From assembly GCA_021014945.1 (NCBI GenBank), contig MU266399.1:1-64000 (forward strand): a DNA stretch of 64,000 nucleotides, written 5' to 3'. The notes under the pieces were generated by a model. The model searched no databases. It was not told the DNA's origin and saw only the letters and a list, made by a program, of their open reading frames with translations. Position 1 is the first letter of the stretch; every line of letters starts with the position of its first letter. The DNA is from Leucogyrophana mollusca. Its lineage: Eukaryota > Basidiomycota > Agaricomycetes > Boletales. The translations under genes and the position numbers were made by a program. This document shows positions 26,689 through 33,314 of the stretch, one piece after another.

Positions 26689-27138
26689 TGGCGTGGGGGT
26701 CAATCAAGCGACGACGGAGAATGTCAGCGAACACTTCCTTCCTTTCTCGGACGCATCCGAAATATCTCATGAAGTTCCGGGTCCAATCAAGCCCACCGAG
26801 TCGCAACGATACTGCTGTTTCCCGTCTTTTCCGGAGTCGAGCGTCGTCCGAATGCTTGCTGTCCATCACTGATATTCAGCTGGCTTTGCATGGTGCATAA
26901 AGCCGGACACGCAGCGTCGCTGACGTCTCCTCGGGGCAGCTCGCACTTGGCGCCGGGGACCGCGCCCCGGCCCGCAGTCGCAGCCGCAGCACTATGGCCT
27001 AGGGACCTATAAAGCATCTGACGTGGATCAGTTTGCACTCCATTATTCCCTGTTATCAATAGCCGTTTATCATTGCGTCAACTCTTCTAGCAACCCCTTG
27101 TCATCCGAACACAGAGTCCAATGTTAATATCAGAGAAA
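26689..27138. promoter_or_regulatory. Truncated former divergent promoter (NTA1 side)
   Basis: 450 bp between the NTA1 start and the left LTR. Before the insertion it joined directly to 33315 (after removing one AGAAA), so it was the shared upstream region of NTA1 and the DUF7330 gene. A GC-rich palindromic patch lies near 26950-26975. The 90-codon ORF here is low-complexity and not credible. Confidence 0.5.
27134..27138. repeat. Target-site duplication, left copy (AGAAA)
   Basis: The five bases AGAAA next to the left LTR are repeated exactly at 33310-33314 next to the right LTR. A 5-bp duplication is the length made by Ty3/gypsy integrases. Confidence 0.85.
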
Positions 27139-27405
27139 TGTAACGGGCACGAAACGAGAGACTGAACGGATCGAGTACGATGCGAGGAGAAAGCCAACAA
27201 GATGCCAGATACTGGCGTTGATTCGACAAAGAGACACTAAGGTACCAGAGTCCGTTGTCACTACAAGCTGACTAATGCGAGACAATACAACATCCTAAGT
27301 ACGCAAACGAATACAACGGCGCAATCGAACTAACGAGAAGAGTCCTTGAGTGCCCATGGTAAGTAAGTGCCCGTTTTCTATACTATAATGACCATGACCG
27401 TGACA
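27139..27405 (-). repeat. 3' LTR of the retrotransposon
   Basis: 267 bp, identical by eye to 33043-33309. In element sense it opens TGTCACGG, has a TTATAGTATAG TATA-like stretch near its start, and ends GTTACA. Confidence 0.93.
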
Positions 27406-27422
27406 TCATCCCCCTTTTAGGG
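27406..27422 (-). other. Polypurine tract next to 3' LTR
   Basis: In element sense CCCTAAAAGGGGGATGA directly abuts the 3' LTR. The AAAAGGGGGA core is the expected plus-strand primer of reverse transcription. Confidence 0.8.
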
Positions 27423-27435
27423 CGGACGTAGGATG

Positions 27436-30400
27436 TCACAAGTCGAGCCTTTCGGCGGGACGCGAAACGCGACCAGAACGGGTCGTCGTTTGCGTAGGCG
27501 GCTCGTACTCAGATCTCAACCTCTGACGTACGGCGGGAGGAGATGCGGGACGAGGGACAGCGGCAGGGACGGCAGCGCGAGCGGGCATGGACGACGAGGC
27601 AGCGGGCAGCGGAGCGGGCAAGGCAGAAGGTAGTGGGACCTGGGCAGAATCAAGAGAAGGAGTATCATTGTCAGTAATAATGGAATAGTTTTTTGTCATA
27701 TCGAAGACGTGGGGACGAGGTGCGCGAGGATGACGGCGATGGAATCGCTCAATCACTTCATCAAATGAAGCAGGAATGTCGGAAAGTGGGATCCACGAAT
27801 CTTCAGACTCGGGAAGAGATCTCCATCGCACGAGATATTCGTAACGATGGCCAGTCTTTCGACAATCGAGAAGTGACTTGATATCGAGAGCGGGATCATC
27901 AGCGAGGCCGAAAGGGACAGGATCTGAGTGGGGATGGAAGTCGGAAGGATCGGAATAGCGTTCGAGGAGTGATACATTAAAGACAGGGTGCAGACGGGAT
28001 AAATATGAAGGGAGACGGAGGTGATAAGCAGAGGAGCCAACTTTGGAGATGACGGGATAAGGACCGAGACGGCGATGATCGAGTTTTAATGATGGGCGAG
28101 TGGTTTTGATATTGCGCCGAAGGAGCCATACCAATTGACCAGGTACGAACTCCGGAGCGGGCAAAACCTTTTGATTATAGTATTTTGCTTGTGTCTCTTG
28201 CGCGAACTGAAGCTCGGCACGGAGTTCAGCGTGAATTGCGTCGAGACGAGCAGCGAGATCAGCAGCAGCAGGGACTGTCGATCGTTCCGAAATCTGTGGC
28301 TCGAAAGAAGGATGGAAACCATAATTAGCATAAAACGGGGTTTGTCGAGTTGAAGAGTTCTCGAGATTGTTAAACGCGAACTCTGCGAGGGGCAAGTAAT
28401 CCACCCAGTCATCCTGCTGATAAGAGCAGTATGCTCGCAAGTAAGTTTCGAGCGTTTGGTTGGTACGCTCCGTCAGACCGTCAGTCTGTGGATGGTACGC
28501 TGTGGAAGTACGAGTTTCGACTTTTAGAAGAGAAGTTAGTTCAGTCCAAAATTTGGAGATGAAAACAGAACCGCGATCCGAGACAATCGAATCGGGCATG
28601 CCATGAAGGCGAAAAATGCGATCCAGGAATAGCCAAGCCAGGTCCGGAGCATCCAGAGTCTCCTGGCAAGGCACGAAATGGGCGCATCGAGTGAGACGGT
28701 CACAGACCACCCAGATAGAATCGTAACCATGAGAAACAGGAAGTTTTACGATGAAATCCATGGAAAGAGATTTCCAAGGACGAGTGGGAATGTCGAGGGG
28801 TTGGAGAAGGCCATAAGGTTTGTGGCGAGGCGTTTTGATGCGAGCACAGGTATCACATGCTTCGACGTAGCGACGCACGAATGTTTGCATACCTGGCCAT
28901 GAATAGTTTCGCGACACGAGCTCGAGAGTTCTTGCTCGTCCCGGATGACCTGCAATCAACGCATCATGGCGGGAATAAAGAATGTCAGTGCGTAATGGTT
29001 TGGGGACGAATACTTTGCCCTTGTGGAAAACCATTCCATCATTGGCAGTGAAATCCGAATTGCCTTGAACTAGAGCTTCTCGCCACTCGACGTCCTCTCG
29101 AAACGCAGTTTGGAAACGCCCGAGAAGAACGGAGTTGTCAATGGCAAGGGTTGTGATAGCTCCAGCGGTAGCAGAAGGTATTGAAGAAGAGTAAGAGGAT
29201 GGGAAAAGCGAATCTGTGTGTTTAGAGGTCAGTATAACACGGGTTTGACCCATTAGGGTGTCATCCCCCTTTTTAGGGACGAAGTCCGAGCGTCGCGAAG
29301 GGGCATCCGCTACGTTAGACTTGCCCGGGGCCCATGTCAGGTTAAAATCGAAATCGGAAAGAAACATCGCCCAACGCGCCTGACGGCGATTGAGGACACG
29401 AGAAGACATAAAGTATTCGAGATTTTTATGATCGGAAATAACAGAAATAGGGAAAGGCGAACCAAGTAACCACGCTCGCATATCGCGAAAACATTCAACG
29501 ATACCAAGCAACTCTTTATCGTGGACATCGTAGTTGATTTCAGCAGGCGACAGCTTTCGTGAATAGAATGCCACAGGGTGGAGATTCCCCGCGTCATCCG
29601 GCTGCTGAAGTACGCCTGAGATAGCGAAGTCCGAGGCATCGGTAGCCAGAGTACAAGGCATGGAGGGATCGAAATGGCGGAGTACCGGAAAAGATGTGAA
29701 TTTACGCTTTAGCATTTCAAACGCTGCGCGTGCAGTACCTGAAAAGTCAAAAGAAACACCCTTACGAGTAAGAGCAGTCAGTGGAATGGTAATGCGTGAA
29801 TAGCCGTCAATGAAGCGGCGGTAGAAATTAGAAAAACCGAGAAAGGATTGTAGTTCCTTCACCGAAGCCGGTTCGGGCCAGGAAGCGATTGTATCGAGCT
29901 TCTTGGGGTTCATCTTAATGCCATCGGCACTGATGATGTAACCCAAGTACTCTACTTCGGACTTGTCCCACTCGCACTTGGCAGGATTAGCGCAGAGATG
30001 GGCGTCACGAAGGCGATCAAGGACGAGCTTGACGTGGGTGTCATGCTCAGCCTGTGTTTTGGAGAAGATGAGTATGTCATCGAGATAAACGACGCATACA
30101 ACATCGAGGAGGTCACGAAGAGTATCCTGAATAAAAGATTGAAAAGCCGCAGGGGCATTAGTAAGACCATAAGGCACGACAAGGTGTTCAAACAAGCCAA
30201 GCGGCGTGCGGAAAGCGGTTTTCCACTCGTCGCTCTCCTTGATTCGGAGGTGGCTGTAAGCGGATTTGAGATCGATAACAGTGAAAACTTTACAGCCCTG
30301 AACACGATCGAGAAGATCATGAACGAGGGGAACTGGGTATCGGTTCTTCTTCGTAATCGCATTCAGACCACGATAATCTACGCATAAGCGTAGTTCACCA

Positions 30401-31743
30401 GTCTTCTTGCGAATGAATAGGACGGGGGCACCAGCAGAAGAAGTTGAGCTGCGGATATGACCACGTTTGAGGTTGGAATTGACGTAGTCGGCGAGAGCAT
30501 CACGTTCCTGAGGGGTGAGACGATACAAAGGGCCGAATGGAGGCGTCTTCCCCTCCTCAAGATCAATGTCAACATCATATGGGCGATGAGGCGGGAGTTT
30601 GTCAAACTCGGTCAGAGAGAATACCGTGGATGCCCAAGGCATGTACTTCTCTGGAATGAACCGAGCGTTGTCCGCAGGCGGAGACGACGATGGTGGAGAC
30701 GACTCGTCGACGTCGGAGTCGACAGTAGTGGTAGTAGCATGAATATAAGCGGGTGAGCCCACGGGATAGAAGCGGAGGAGGCAAATGGAATCAGGTTGTG
30801 ATTTCGCTGCCTTCGCAAACTTCCTGGGGCTGACAAAGCGGATATTTGGAGGCGAGGGTGATGGGAGCGAGGGAGAGGATTGACCAAAGCCAGTCCAACG
30901 AACAAGAGTCGAGAGGAAAGAGCGAGGCGGAGTGGGACTAGGGTCCGGAGTAGTCCCAAAGACAGACGGTGAGTCCGACAGTGCGGACGGTAGCATGGTA
31001 GCATAGCGAGCTGTCGAGGAGGCATCGGATAGACCAAAGCCTAAACCGACCGAAGTTGCGGAGTTCAAGGACGAGCGAGGGACAGGGGGCTTAAGACCAA
31101 AGCCTTTCGCCACCACGGAGACGGGGTGAGACTGGGAAAGACCACAACACTCGAGCGAGAGTGTTGAATCTTCCCAATCGATATCGGGATTATGCTGGCG
31201 TAGCCAGTCAAGGCCTAGGATAACAGGATAGCCGACAGAGACGACGGCGAGGGGTCGGATTTCGTGATGAGAGTCAACAGAGATAGTGGCAACAACGTCA
31301 TGGGTGATCAATCCAGACGCAATCGGGCGATCATCAACCGCCATAATTGGTACAGGGACGTCCTTAAGACGTCTAGAAAGAGAATGTCGAGAGGCGAAGC
31401 GGTCAGAAATACATGAGGTCGTAGCCCCAGAATCAACAAGAGCGTATGTGTTTATGGGTTTTCGGTTAGGAAAAGAGAGTGAAATTGAAATAAAGAAATG
31501 GGACGGAGAATTAAGATAGGAAGAAGAAGAAAAAACGTAAGCAGGAGATGACTTATTGATTGTGGTATAACTCCCATTCGATAGACGAACGTGAGTGGGT
31601 TCCGGTGATGGAGCGTTGCGGTGACGAGTCCCATCGTCGACCGGAGACCCTGGGACTAGTGAGTCACCGGTCAAGCTTTTCCCGACGACGATGCCTGAGG
31701 TGCCTTGAATTTCTTCTTGGCACGCTGGGACATGTTCGGGCAA
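27436..31743 (-). CDS. pol: Pol polyprotein (protease-RT-RNase H-integrase-chromodomain)
   Basis: 1435-codon open frame in the -1 frame relative to gag. It has no ATG near its 5' end and is probably made as a Gag-Pol fusion by frameshift at 31677-31683. Numbering from the first codon at 31743, the domains are: protease active site ALVDSGATTS (Asp104); reverse transcriptase with VYLDDILIFSK (553-556 YLDD); RNase H with LATDASDFAISG (about 700-710); integrase zinc region with HDALIAGHPGR and CDTCARI (926-970); catalytic Asp995, Asp1056 and Glu1092 in SMDFIVK, VSDRGSVF and TERTNQ; and a C-terminal chromodomain (YEYLVRWRSLPESEDSW, about residues 1330-1350). The chromodomain is expected to guide integration to modified histones. 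No inactivating change is seen. Confidence 0.95.
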   Translation of the reverse strand: MPEHVPACQEEIQGTSGIVVGKSLTGDSLVPGSPVDDGTRHRNAPSPEPTHVRLSNGSYTTINKSSPAYVFSSSSYLNSPSHFFISISLSFPNRKPINTYALVDSGATTSCISDRFASRHSLSRRLKDVPVPIMAVDDRPIASGLITHDVVATISVDSHHEIRPLAVVSVGYPVILGLDWLRQHNPDIDWEDSTLSLECCGLSQSHPVSVVAKGFGLKPPVPRSSLNSATSVGLGFGLSDASSTARYATMLPSALSDSPSVFGTTPDPSPTPPRSFLSTLVRWTGFGQSSPSLPSPSPPNIRFVSPRKFAKAAKSQPDSICLLRFYPVGSPAYIHATTTTVDSDVDESSPPSSSPPADNARFIPEKYMPWASTVFSLTEFDKLPPHRPYDVDIDLEEGKTPPFGPLYRLTPQERDALADYVNSNLKRGHIRSSTSSAGAPVLFIRKKTGELRLCVDYRGLNAITKKNRYPVPLVHDLLDRVQGCKVFTVIDLKSAYSHLRIKESDEWKTAFRTPLGLFEHLVVPYGLTNAPAAFQSFIQDTLRDLLDVVCVVYLDDILIFSKTQAEHDTHVKLVLDRLRDAHLCANPAKCEWDKSEVEYLGYIISADGIKMNPKKLDTIASWPEPASVKELQSFLGFSNFYRRFIDGYSRITIPLTALTRKGVSFDFSGTARAAFEMLKRKFTSFPVLRHFDPSMPCTLATDASDFAISGVLQQPDDAGNLHPVAFYSRKLSPAEINYDVHDKELLGIVECFRDMRAWLLGSPFPISVISDHKNLEYFMSSRVLNRRQARWAMFLSDFDFNLTWAPGKSNVADAPSRRSDFVPKKGDDTLMGQTRVILTSKHTDSLFPSSYSSSIPSATAGAITTLAIDNSVLLGRFQTAFREDVEWREALVQGNSDFTANDGMVFHKGKVFVPKPLRTDILYSRHDALIAGHPGRARTLELVSRNYSWPGMQTFVRRYVEACDTCARIKTPRHKPYGLLQPLDIPTRPWKSLSMDFIVKLPVSHGYDSIWVVCDRLTRCAHFVPCQETLDAPDLAWLFLDRIFRLHGMPDSIVSDRGSVFISKFWTELTSLLKVETRTSTAYHPQTDGLTERTNQTLETYLRAYCSYQQDDWVDYLPLAEFAFNNLENSSTRQTPFYANYGFHPSFEPQISERSTVPAAADLAARLDAIHAELRAELQFAQETQAKYYNQKVLPAPEFVPGQLVWLLRRNIKTTRPSLKLDHRRLGPYPVISKVGSSAYHLRLPSYLSRLHPVFNVSLLERYSDPSDFHPHSDPVPFGLADDPALDIKSLLDCRKTGHRYEYLVRWRSLPESEDSWIPLSDIPASFDEVIERFHRRHPRAPRPHVFDMTKNYSIITDNDTPSLDSAQVPLPSALPAPLPAASSSMPARAAVPAAVPRPASPPAVRQRLRSEYEPPTQTTTRSGRVSRPAERLDL
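29261..29278 (-). other. Internal copy of the polypurine tract (candidate central PPT)
   Basis: Inside pol, just after RNase H and before integrase, element-sense CCCTAAAAAGGGGGATGA repeats the 3' PPT with a single extra A. Here it encodes PKKGDD (about codons 823-828). Ty1 and lentiviruses have comparable central tracts that start a second plus strand. Confidence 0.55.
31619..31683 (-). promoter_or_regulatory. -1 programmed ribosomal frameshift signal (gag/pol)
   Basis: In gag frame the last codons read TCG GGA AAA GCT TGA. They contain the canonical heptamer G GGA AAA at complement 31677-31683. After a 7-nt spacer (GCTTGAC), two 7-bp stems can form: CGGTGAC (31669-31663) with GTCACCG (31625-31619), and AGTCCCA (31657-31651) with TGGGACT (31633-31627). 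They are separated by a small asymmetric bulge and capped by a 17-nt loop. Heptamer, spacer length and stem strength all match known -1 sites. The shifted frame continues directly into pol (GKSLTGDSLV). Confidence 0.85.
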
Positions 31744-32852
31744 TCGTTCGCGCGATGACCCTGCTGTCCACAGTACAAGCAGAGGTCATTAGCGATGCGT
31801 CGTTCACGTTCCTCCTTGGTAAGAGGCCCATGGGGCTTCGTCTTGGTTGCGTCAATCTCCATGGGGGTACCAGGAGGGAGCGCAGGTGCAGATGACGACG
31901 ACGCTTGCGAAGTATAGGTGGTGCGGGCCGTGGACGCAGATGAAGATGTGTTGGCCGTAGTCGACGAGTTAGATTGGCGTGAAGAAGTATTAGGCTTCTT
32001 GTTGTCACGCTTCTCGTTCTCGCGACGGTGGAGCCGGTTGTCGATCTTGACAGTGAGATCGACATATTTGTCGAAGTCTGTGGGTAGGTCAGCAACGGTA
32101 ATCAAGATATCCTTAACCTCGTCTTTGAGTCCTTCGTAATACTTCTGAATGGTCGTTGAAGTATTGAAGTTGACATAAACGAGGAGTTCACGGAATTTGG
32201 ACGCATAGTTGGCGCACGATCCAGTTTGTCGTAAACGCTCGATCTTGCGGAGCGCCGTACCTTCCACATCTGGATCGCCGAAATGCTGCTTAAAGTCAGT
32301 AATAAGTTTCTCGAAACTATGAAGGAGTTTGGGAGAAGTTCGTTGTACAGCGGTGAACCATGCACGAGGAGATCCCGTGTCAAGATACGTCGACAAGAAT
32401 AAGCACTTGTCGGTATCGGTAGGTAGGGATGCACGTGACAATGTCACTGCGCCTCGAATCTCATCCACGAAGGACTCGACTTCGGTCGCACTGCCATTGA
32501 ATACCCGAGGTTCCTTGAAACGGGAAACGCTACGGGGTGCATCGGGATCCGCACGCTGCGGCAGAGCATAACTCGTTTGAGGTGCAGCCGCAGTGGTGCG
32601 CAGCGAAGAAAGCTGATCGGTTATGGCTTCGAGCGCACGACCGATAGCACGCTGATTCTCGTCGAAACGGTCCGACTGTTGCCCGAGCGCCGTAATAGCG
32701 CGAAGCATATTAACGACCGGGGGCTGCATGTGAGTCGGCTGTTCCTGCGGAGCATTTGGGACAGTATGGTCCGGTTGTTGCTCCATAGGTTCTGACTGCG
32801 GGACATCAGGGACATCCTCACTAGTCCAGTGGTTCATACTAGGATCAGACAT
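31671..32852 (-). CDS. gag: Gag protein with CCHC zinc knuckle
   Basis: 393-residue structural protein of the retrotransposon particle. The start is the ATG at 32852 (MSDPSMNHWTSED). The middle has the retrotransposon Gag core (FKEPRVFNGSATEVESFVDE, YLDTGSPRAWFTA, NYASKFRELLVYVNF). Near the C-terminus is a CCHC knuckle, CLYCGQQGHRANDC, that binds RNA, preceded by a Ser/Thr-rich linker. The stop at 31671-31673 follows a G GGA AAA slippery heptamer by one codon. Intact. Confidence 0.94.
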   Translation of the reverse strand: MSDPSMNHWTSEDVPDVPQSEPMEQQPDHTVPNAPQEQPTHMQPPVVNMLRAITALGQQSDRFDENQRAIGRALEAITDQLSSLRTTAAAPQTSYALPQRADPDAPRSVSRFKEPRVFNGSATEVESFVDEIRGAVTLSRASLPTDTDKCLFLSTYLDTGSPRAWFTAVQRTSPKLLHSFEKLITDFKQHFGDPDVEGTALRKIERLRQTGSCANYASKFRELLVYVNFNTSTTIQKYYEGLKDEVKDILITVADLPTDFDKYVDLTVKIDNRLHRRENEKRDNKKPNTSSRQSNSSTTANTSSSASTARTTYTSQASSSSAPALPPGTPMEIDATKTKPHGPLTKEERERRIANDLCLYCGQQGHRANDCPNMSQRAKKKFKAPQASSSGKA

Positions 32853-33030
32853 GATAATTTAGCAGTTTTATGACGCTTTTAAGGGCGTCCAAATGGTAGA
32901 ATAAAGTAGGAAGGACTTTACGAGGATTATTCGAGTGTACTCGCTGCAGTGAAAATTTTCACTAGTGCGGCAGCAAGCCAAATACGGCGTGATAAGGAAA
33001 TCGGCGAGGACTAGAGTATTTTGGGATGTG

Positions 33031-33042
33031 GTCGAATCAAAC
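33031..33042 (-). other. Primer binding site, probably self-primed
   Basis: Element-sense bases directly after the 5' LTR are GTTTGATTCGAC. They lack the TGG start expected for tRNA primers. Ten of them (TTGATTCGAC) are the exact reverse complement of GTCGAATCAA inside the LTR (complement 33122-33131). This fits self-priming by the mRNA 5' end, as in Tf1. Confidence 0.55.
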
Positions 33043-33309
33043 TGTAACGGGCACGAAACGAGAGACTGAACGGATCGAGTACGATGCGAGGAGAAAGCCA
33101 ACAAGATGCCAGATACTGGCGTTGATTCGACAAAGAGACACTAAGGTACCAGAGTCCGTTGTCACTACAAGCTGACTAATGCGAGACAATACAACATCCT
33201 AAGTACGCAAACGAATACAACGGCGCAATCGAACTAACGAGAAGAGTCCTTGAGTGCCCATGGTAAGTAAGTGCCCGTTTTCTATACTATAATGACCATG
33301 ACCGTGACA
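33043..33309 (-). repeat. 5' LTR of the retrotransposon
   Basis: 267 bp, identical by eye to 27139-27405. Read on the plus strand it forms the immediate upstream sequence of the DUF7330 gene. There its last 20 bases contribute upstream ATGs (atgaccatgaccgtgaca), and slightly earlier it holds a GGTAAGT donor-like site. Confidence 0.93.
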
Positions 33310-33314
33310 AGAAA
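33310..33314. repeat. Target-site duplication, right copy (AGAAA)
   Basis: Exact match to 27134-27138, directly after the right LTR. Confidence 0.85.

Follow-up and report, generated by a model that had tools for sequence, protein, structure and literature searches.

The window analysed here, a 64,000-nt stretch of a Leucogyrophana mollusca contig (MU266399.1), contains an LTR retrotransposon on its minus strand with gag and pol in different reading frames. Because the two LTRs are identical and the element is flanked by TTTCT duplications, we conclude that it inserted recently. Both the gag frame and the pol frame of this copy are free of internal stops. The element consists of the following features.

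27139-33309, minus strand: LTR retrotransposon (whole element)
27134-27138 and 33310-33314: target duplication TTTCT, flanking the element
33043..33309, minus strand: 5′ LTR, 267 bp, TGT...ACA
27139..27405, minus strand: 3′ LTR, 267 bp, with zero differences from the 5′ LTR
33122..33131, minus strand: putative self-primer GTCGAATCAA, LTR position 179-188
33031..33040, minus strand: putative primer-binding site TTGATTCGAC, able to pair with the LTR of the same element
31671..32852, minus strand: gag ORF from its first ATG, with Retrotrans_gag / Ty3_capsid matches and the C-terminus SSSGKA
31734-31781, minus strand: CCHC knuckle in gag
27436..31785, minus strand: pol open frame, -1 of gag, encoding protease, RT, RNase H, integrase and chromodomain; used from the slip site onward
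27733..27879, minus strand: chromodomain (PF00385) in the C-terminal part of pol

Classification and self-priming

A profile search of pol gave matches over the cut-off for PF00078, PF17921, PF24626 and PF00385, and the integrase core rve (PF00665) scored under its cut-off in the same search. Integrase zinc-binding and SH3_Tf2-1 are among the domains matched. Its pol is thus of the Ty3/gypsy kind and carries a chromodomain at the C-terminal end of the integrase, a criterion for a chromovirus of the Tf1/sushi group. The named relatives are for the most part mushrooms. Judged by this chromodomain pol together with a primer site complementary to its own LTR, the element is most likely a Tf1/sushi-type chromovirus.

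Tf1/sushi elements are described as self-priming in a passage of PMC10085805. In the window copy, 10 nt just past the 5′ LTR can pair with LTR position 179-188; when the primer region of the window was shuffled 20000 times, such a match arose 9 times. A second copy of the same family in the same genome, C288 (L044), carries TTGACACTAC/GTAGTGTCAA at the same two places when read by eye, so that the sequence differs and the complementarity is retained, and the primer/LTR helix appears in the folds of both elements. This apparent covariation of putative self-primer and primer-binding site points to Tf1-type self-priming in the element's family.

The gag-pol junction

On the minus strand, gag ends in TCG GGA AAA GCT TGA and pol continues in the -1 frame.

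31677..31683, minus strand: slippery heptamer GGGAAAA, read G GGA AAA in the gag phase
31671..31673, minus strand: gag stop TGA, one codon past the heptamer (TAA in C288)
31670..31676, minus strand: spacer GCTTGAC, 7 nt, from the heptamer to the outer stem

The two genes overlap by 115 nt, and pol is open across the site in the -1 frame. Read in the frame of gag, G GGA AAA fits the X XXY YYZ pattern; a slip by one base would change the reading from GGA AAA to GGG AAA and lead through AGC TTG ACC GGT into pol. The first ATG in the pol frame is residue 148, past the protease DSGA motif (residue 118), and from the slip site to DSGA a single TTG is the sole codon among ATG, CTG, TTG, GTG and ACG. 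An initial annotation of this DNA had already described a pol gene in -1 of gag that lacks an early ATG and a G GGA AAA in phase one codon ahead of the gag stop, and both descriptions hold. Three other ways of reaching pol were rejected: readthrough of the stop codon, since pol lies outside the gag frame; a +1 frameshift, since the +1 frame meets a stop only a few codons away from the slip site; and initiation at the pol ATG, since the first ATG lies beyond DSGA.

C288 is the only other copy that matched at the junction in a DNA search of the genome, with 68% identity over 466 of 501 junction bases. It is decayed: its LTRs are 92% identical, and stops interrupt its gag once and its pol five times. 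Among residues shared with the window copy, gag has identical codons at 52 of 143 positions and pol at 436 of 960, with 11 of 16 identical within the first 20 pol codons from the slip site (counted by hand). Despite a TAA stop in place of TGA, C288 retains TCGGGAAAAGC; we read this heptamer directly, as the junction script skipped it and took the pol frame from downstream of a stop. A decayed relic of the same family, C46 (L060), has SGRA* with VPGSPTDV in the -1 frame and a broken heptamer. Across the genome, the pattern GGGAAAAGCNTRA is not enriched (8 matches, and 8 for the reversed control).

The end of Gag is also conserved among protein homologues. The C-terminus is [SA]GK[AV] in 31 of 46 gag homologues and exactly SGKA in 28, whereas the tail that separates this end from the knuckle ranges from 11 to 37 residues and shows far lower conservation. 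Selection on the slip site would be expected to leave just this pattern, a constant final tetrapeptide behind a tail of changing length. The heptamer of these homologues is read from their protein ends and would be encoded there by the same bases only presumptively, and SGKA may instead be conserved for a protein-level reason. The remaining 15 of the 46 homologues have other ends, including SGQA (P0021) and PKKA (P0027), and several of them seem truncated or distant. The predicted start of one pol homologue (P0050), LTGCCNVPGHPVDDGTR, corresponds to the pol residues right past the slip site. Scans of viral contigs for relatives returned none, and a search of 11 bacterial bins for closer gag relatives gave a best identity of about 35% over long stretches, none of them close.

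Removal of the gag stop by splicing, or separate initiation of pol, is a very improbable explanation of how pol is expressed. In one database model (P0056, 2403 aa), gag and pol are joined and the SGKA junction is missing, which is what annotating an intron there would produce; however, an annotated intron of this sort in Tcn1 was wrong and masked a frameshift, according to a passage of PMC10085805. Either route leaves the conserved heptamer and the SGKA end unexplained, and separate initiation would begin past the protease motif. We consider it very probable that programmed -1 ribosomal frameshifting from gag into pol takes place at this site, and that the element is a fungal Tf1/sushi-type chromovirus of recent insertion. 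The part of the initial annotation that proposed a -1 shift is well supported by the frames, the phase, the heptamer of C288 and the conserved ends of the gag homologues. On this model, ribosomes would translate gag until GGA is in the P site and AAA in the A site, and a minority of them would slip one base back to GGG AAA and so escape the TGA one codon on. The slipped ribosomes would go on through protease, RT and integrase to yield a Gag-Pol fusion. The ribosome would be slowed, and slipping made more frequent, by a structure that starts some 7 nt past the heptamer; in the window copy the nested 7+7-bp hairpin is its most likely form.

Structure downstream of the heptamer

Signals for -1 frameshifting are expected to have a stable structure about 5-9 nt downstream of the heptamer. 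In the window copy, the layout CGGTGAC..AGTCCCA..TGGGACT.GTCACCG begins 7 bases past the heptamer and forms nested stems of 7+7 bp. Some of the same bases can also form a pseudoknot.

31663..31669, minus strand: outer stem, 5′ arm CGGTGAC; pairing partly retained in C288
31619..31625, minus strand: outer stem, 3′ arm GTCACCG; partly retained in C288
31651..31657, minus strand: inner stem, 5′ arm AGTCCCA; doubles as stem 2 of the alternative pseudoknot
31627..31633, minus strand: inner stem, 3′ arm TGGGACT
31667..31672, minus strand: alternative pseudoknot stem 1, 5′ arm GACCGG (centroid structure)
31639..31644, minus strand: alternative pseudoknot stem 1, 3′ arm CCGGTC (centroid structure)

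The 7-nt spacer and the two nested perfect stems (CGGTGAC/GTCACCG and AGTCCCA/TGGGACT) are present on the minus strand as first annotated. In a test devised after the stems had been seen, dinucleotide shuffling of the 80 nt gave two nested perfect 7-bp stems 16 times in 20000, and synonymous recoding 3 times in 20000. Folding energy is only moderately low: across four lengths, p is 0.018-0.058 when compared with dinucleotide shuffles, and across five lengths 0.016-0.036 when compared with synonymous recodings; over 60 nt the nested hairpin of the window folds at -25.1 kcal/mol. A 92-nt junction stretch is unexceptional (z -0.95, with 34 of 200 shuffles folding equally well or better), and Rfam gave zero matches in 31300-32000 at E up to 1. 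Of 2036 segments of 66 nt taken along the element, 17 fold as well as the junction or better, and only two of these overlap it. The other 15 lie at three places on the minus strand, around 32542-32607, 31111-31194 and 27385-27507.

The stems fare differently in C288. Its inner stem keeps 6 of 7 pairs, one of them altered on both sides, and its outer stem is mostly lost, with 3 Watson-Crick and 2 G-U pairs of 7. Its junction stretch shows no gain in stability over shuffles, with p at 0.255-0.778 depending on length. The initial annotation had asked whether compensatory changes keep the stems in related elements; with two sequences to compare, the single double change in the inner stem could be such a case. 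Because C288 is itself decayed, the loss of its outer stem may be decay. For the strong stimulatory hairpin that had been proposed, the sequences give support, as a prediction, in the window copy only.

It is possible, if doubtful, that the same -1 shift is stimulated by an H-type pseudoknot or by exchange between a pseudoknot and the nested hairpin. In this model, GACCGG/CCGGTC is extended to a 9-pair stem 1 and AGTCCCA/TGGGACT serves as stem 2; in the window, neither the 7 bp of stem 2 nor the 6-bp core of stem 1 has a mismatch, and the stimulator of PEG10 is given as a pseudoknot in PMC5009743. Pseudoknot pairs are kept at 15 of 16 positions in the window and 14 of 16 in C288, with two double changes, compared with 14 of 14 and 11 of 14 for the nested hairpin, with one double change. 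Over both copies this amounts to 90.6% of 32 paired cells for the pseudoknot and 89.3% of 28 for the hairpin, figures that leave the two models undivided because only two sequences are compared. Shuffles matched the observed pairing in 120 of 500 cases for the pseudoknot and 253 of 500 for the hairpin. Against the pseudoknot, it would leave a spacer of just 3-4 nt and one loop of about 4 nt, dimensions that we read as tight; the nested hairpin folds at the energy given above; and stem 1 of C288 is weak as a duplex (-5.8). The double change in stem 2 can also be assigned to another helix in the RNAalifold consensus of the window and C288, which contains neither the hairpin nor the pseudoknot and prefers a different set of pairs. 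It would be quite improbable, if conceivable from the sequence, that the stimulator has two states, with AGTCCCA/TGGGACT common to hairpin and pseudoknot, exchange between them setting the Gag:Gag-Pol ratio and C288 forming mainly the pseudoknot.

We regard it as unlikely that the stems are incidental, with the heptamer and the adjacent stop sufficing for the shift and no specific stimulator. C288 does have the heptamer without the outer stem and a fold matched by its shuffles, the bases of the inner stem sit in codons conserved for V-P-G and G-T, and equally strong folds exist at three other places in the element. However, chance seldom produces nested stems so placed, and hairpins are predicted at a similar distance in other -1 relatives, although only 6 of the 13 folded sites beat their shuffles (p below 0.05). 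The nested hairpin of the window copy is the structure that we would favour as the candidate stimulator.

Related junctions and known systems

A pol-alignment scan of bacterial and archaeal genome contigs yielded 20 distant loci (L070-L089). These are retroelement contigs inside bacteria-named records and look like binning contamination; their sources are probably eukaryotic, mostly fungal, contaminating the bins. The junction script, whose scope excludes the chromodomain, covered 15 of the 20 and left out L070, L078, L083, L086 and L088. In 11 of the 15, pol lies in -1 of gag. GGGAAAC is in phase in L071, L072 and L087 and CCCAAAA in L076, and GGAAAAC is found near the gag end in L073, L074, L080, L081 and L082. 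The script found no canonical heptamer in L075 and L089, though pol is in -1 there. The initial annotation implied that a -1 site is unusual in the Tf1 type; these 11 relatives contradict that notion, as does the statement in a passage of PMC10085805 that -1 predominates outside fission yeasts.

Several loci depart from this arrangement. The five with G GAA AAC, compared with the G GGA AAC of related loci, would have a non-canonical pairing in the P site, and their predicted hairpin core starts 6 nt downstream, with the gag stop inside its loop. In L077:1099, L084:1359 and L085:1257, pol is in frame with gag past a TGA, which resembles readthrough. A '-1' call for L079 proved to be a single gag-protease ORF interrupted further on, with no gag-pol junction, and is uncounted.

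A hairpin is predicted a few nt downstream of the GGGAAAC or GGAAAAC site in eight distant loci. We analysed covariation in seven of them, omitting L072, where the stem was not seen by eye; L075, L076 and L089 fell outside the set. An 11-bp core 6 nt past the slip site is paired in 90.9% of 77 cells (reached in 1 of 500 shuffles), a count that overstates the independent events because six of the seven loci come from one bin. Its covariation score was reached in 0 of 500 shuffles, and slid controls pair at no more than 40.3%; this core was picked by inspecting the very sequences tested. Weaker measures are less distinctive, with three double-changed pairs in 131 of 500 shuffles and further pair types in 477 of 500. 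RNAalifold on the distant loci returned the same helix plus one more pair, and 4 of its 12 pairs are changed on both sides. The six sites that fold better than shuffles are those of the window, L071, L073, L081, C519 and C313; the other 7 of the 13, C288 included, do not.

The last two named, C519 (L045) and C313 (L047), belong to a separate retroelement family in the same genome, in which gag ends in GCG AAA AAA TAG and pol is in -1 at the junction. Here the slip phase differs from the canonical X XXY YYZ, and a perfect 10-bp hairpin (GCAACTTCCA/TGGAAGTTGC) is present. A '+1' listing for C519 came from measuring the pol frame further downstream; at the junction itself, pol is -1.

Passages of PMC10085805 state that Tf1/sushi elements outside fission yeasts make Gag-Pol predominantly by -1 frameshifting, while Tf1/Tf2, and usually the plant cluster too, have a single ORF. 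The same source gives grasshopper as -1 and Tcn1 as a programmed frameshift, and includes sushi-ichi, MAGGY and marY1 in a figure. Elsewhere, fungi are noted to have both -1 and +1 elements, and G_GGA_AAC ranks among the heptamers on which mammalian ribosomes shift most readily (PMC5009743); chromodomain-bearing Verticillium elements are reported to place pol in -1 relative to gag (PMC3441728), and the PEG10 heptamer is GGGAAAC (PMC10570562). Going by their description, our element shares with the Tf1/sushi-group chromoviruses that use a -1 shift a chromodomain, a CCHC gag, an LTR-complementary primer site and pol in -1. Tf1/Tf2 of fission yeast are likewise self-priming chromoviruses, but have a single gag-pol ORF and no CCHC, whereas the element has two ORFs in different frames. 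PEG10, a mammalian gene related to sushi-ichi, shares GGGAAAN just ahead of the stop, the -1 shift and derivation from Ty3/gypsy. It differs in that its heptamer ends in C rather than A, that its stimulator is a pseudoknot while in the element the hairpin folds better, and that it is a domesticated gene. Among titles and abstract openings, a set that covers few subscription papers, we found no title on frameshift sites of basidiomycete chromoviruses.

Frameshifting by -1 between gag and pol is already known for this kind of element, of which ours is a further member. It offers a clean case of probable gag-pol recoding in a fungal chromovirus that inserted recently, and it goes against the notion that such recoding is rare in the Tf1 type. 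Together, these junctions suggest that more than one lineage of these elements has sites of the GGGAAAN type, resembling that of PEG10, followed within a few bases by a predicted hairpin, so that an ancestral and a convergent origin become testable against each other.
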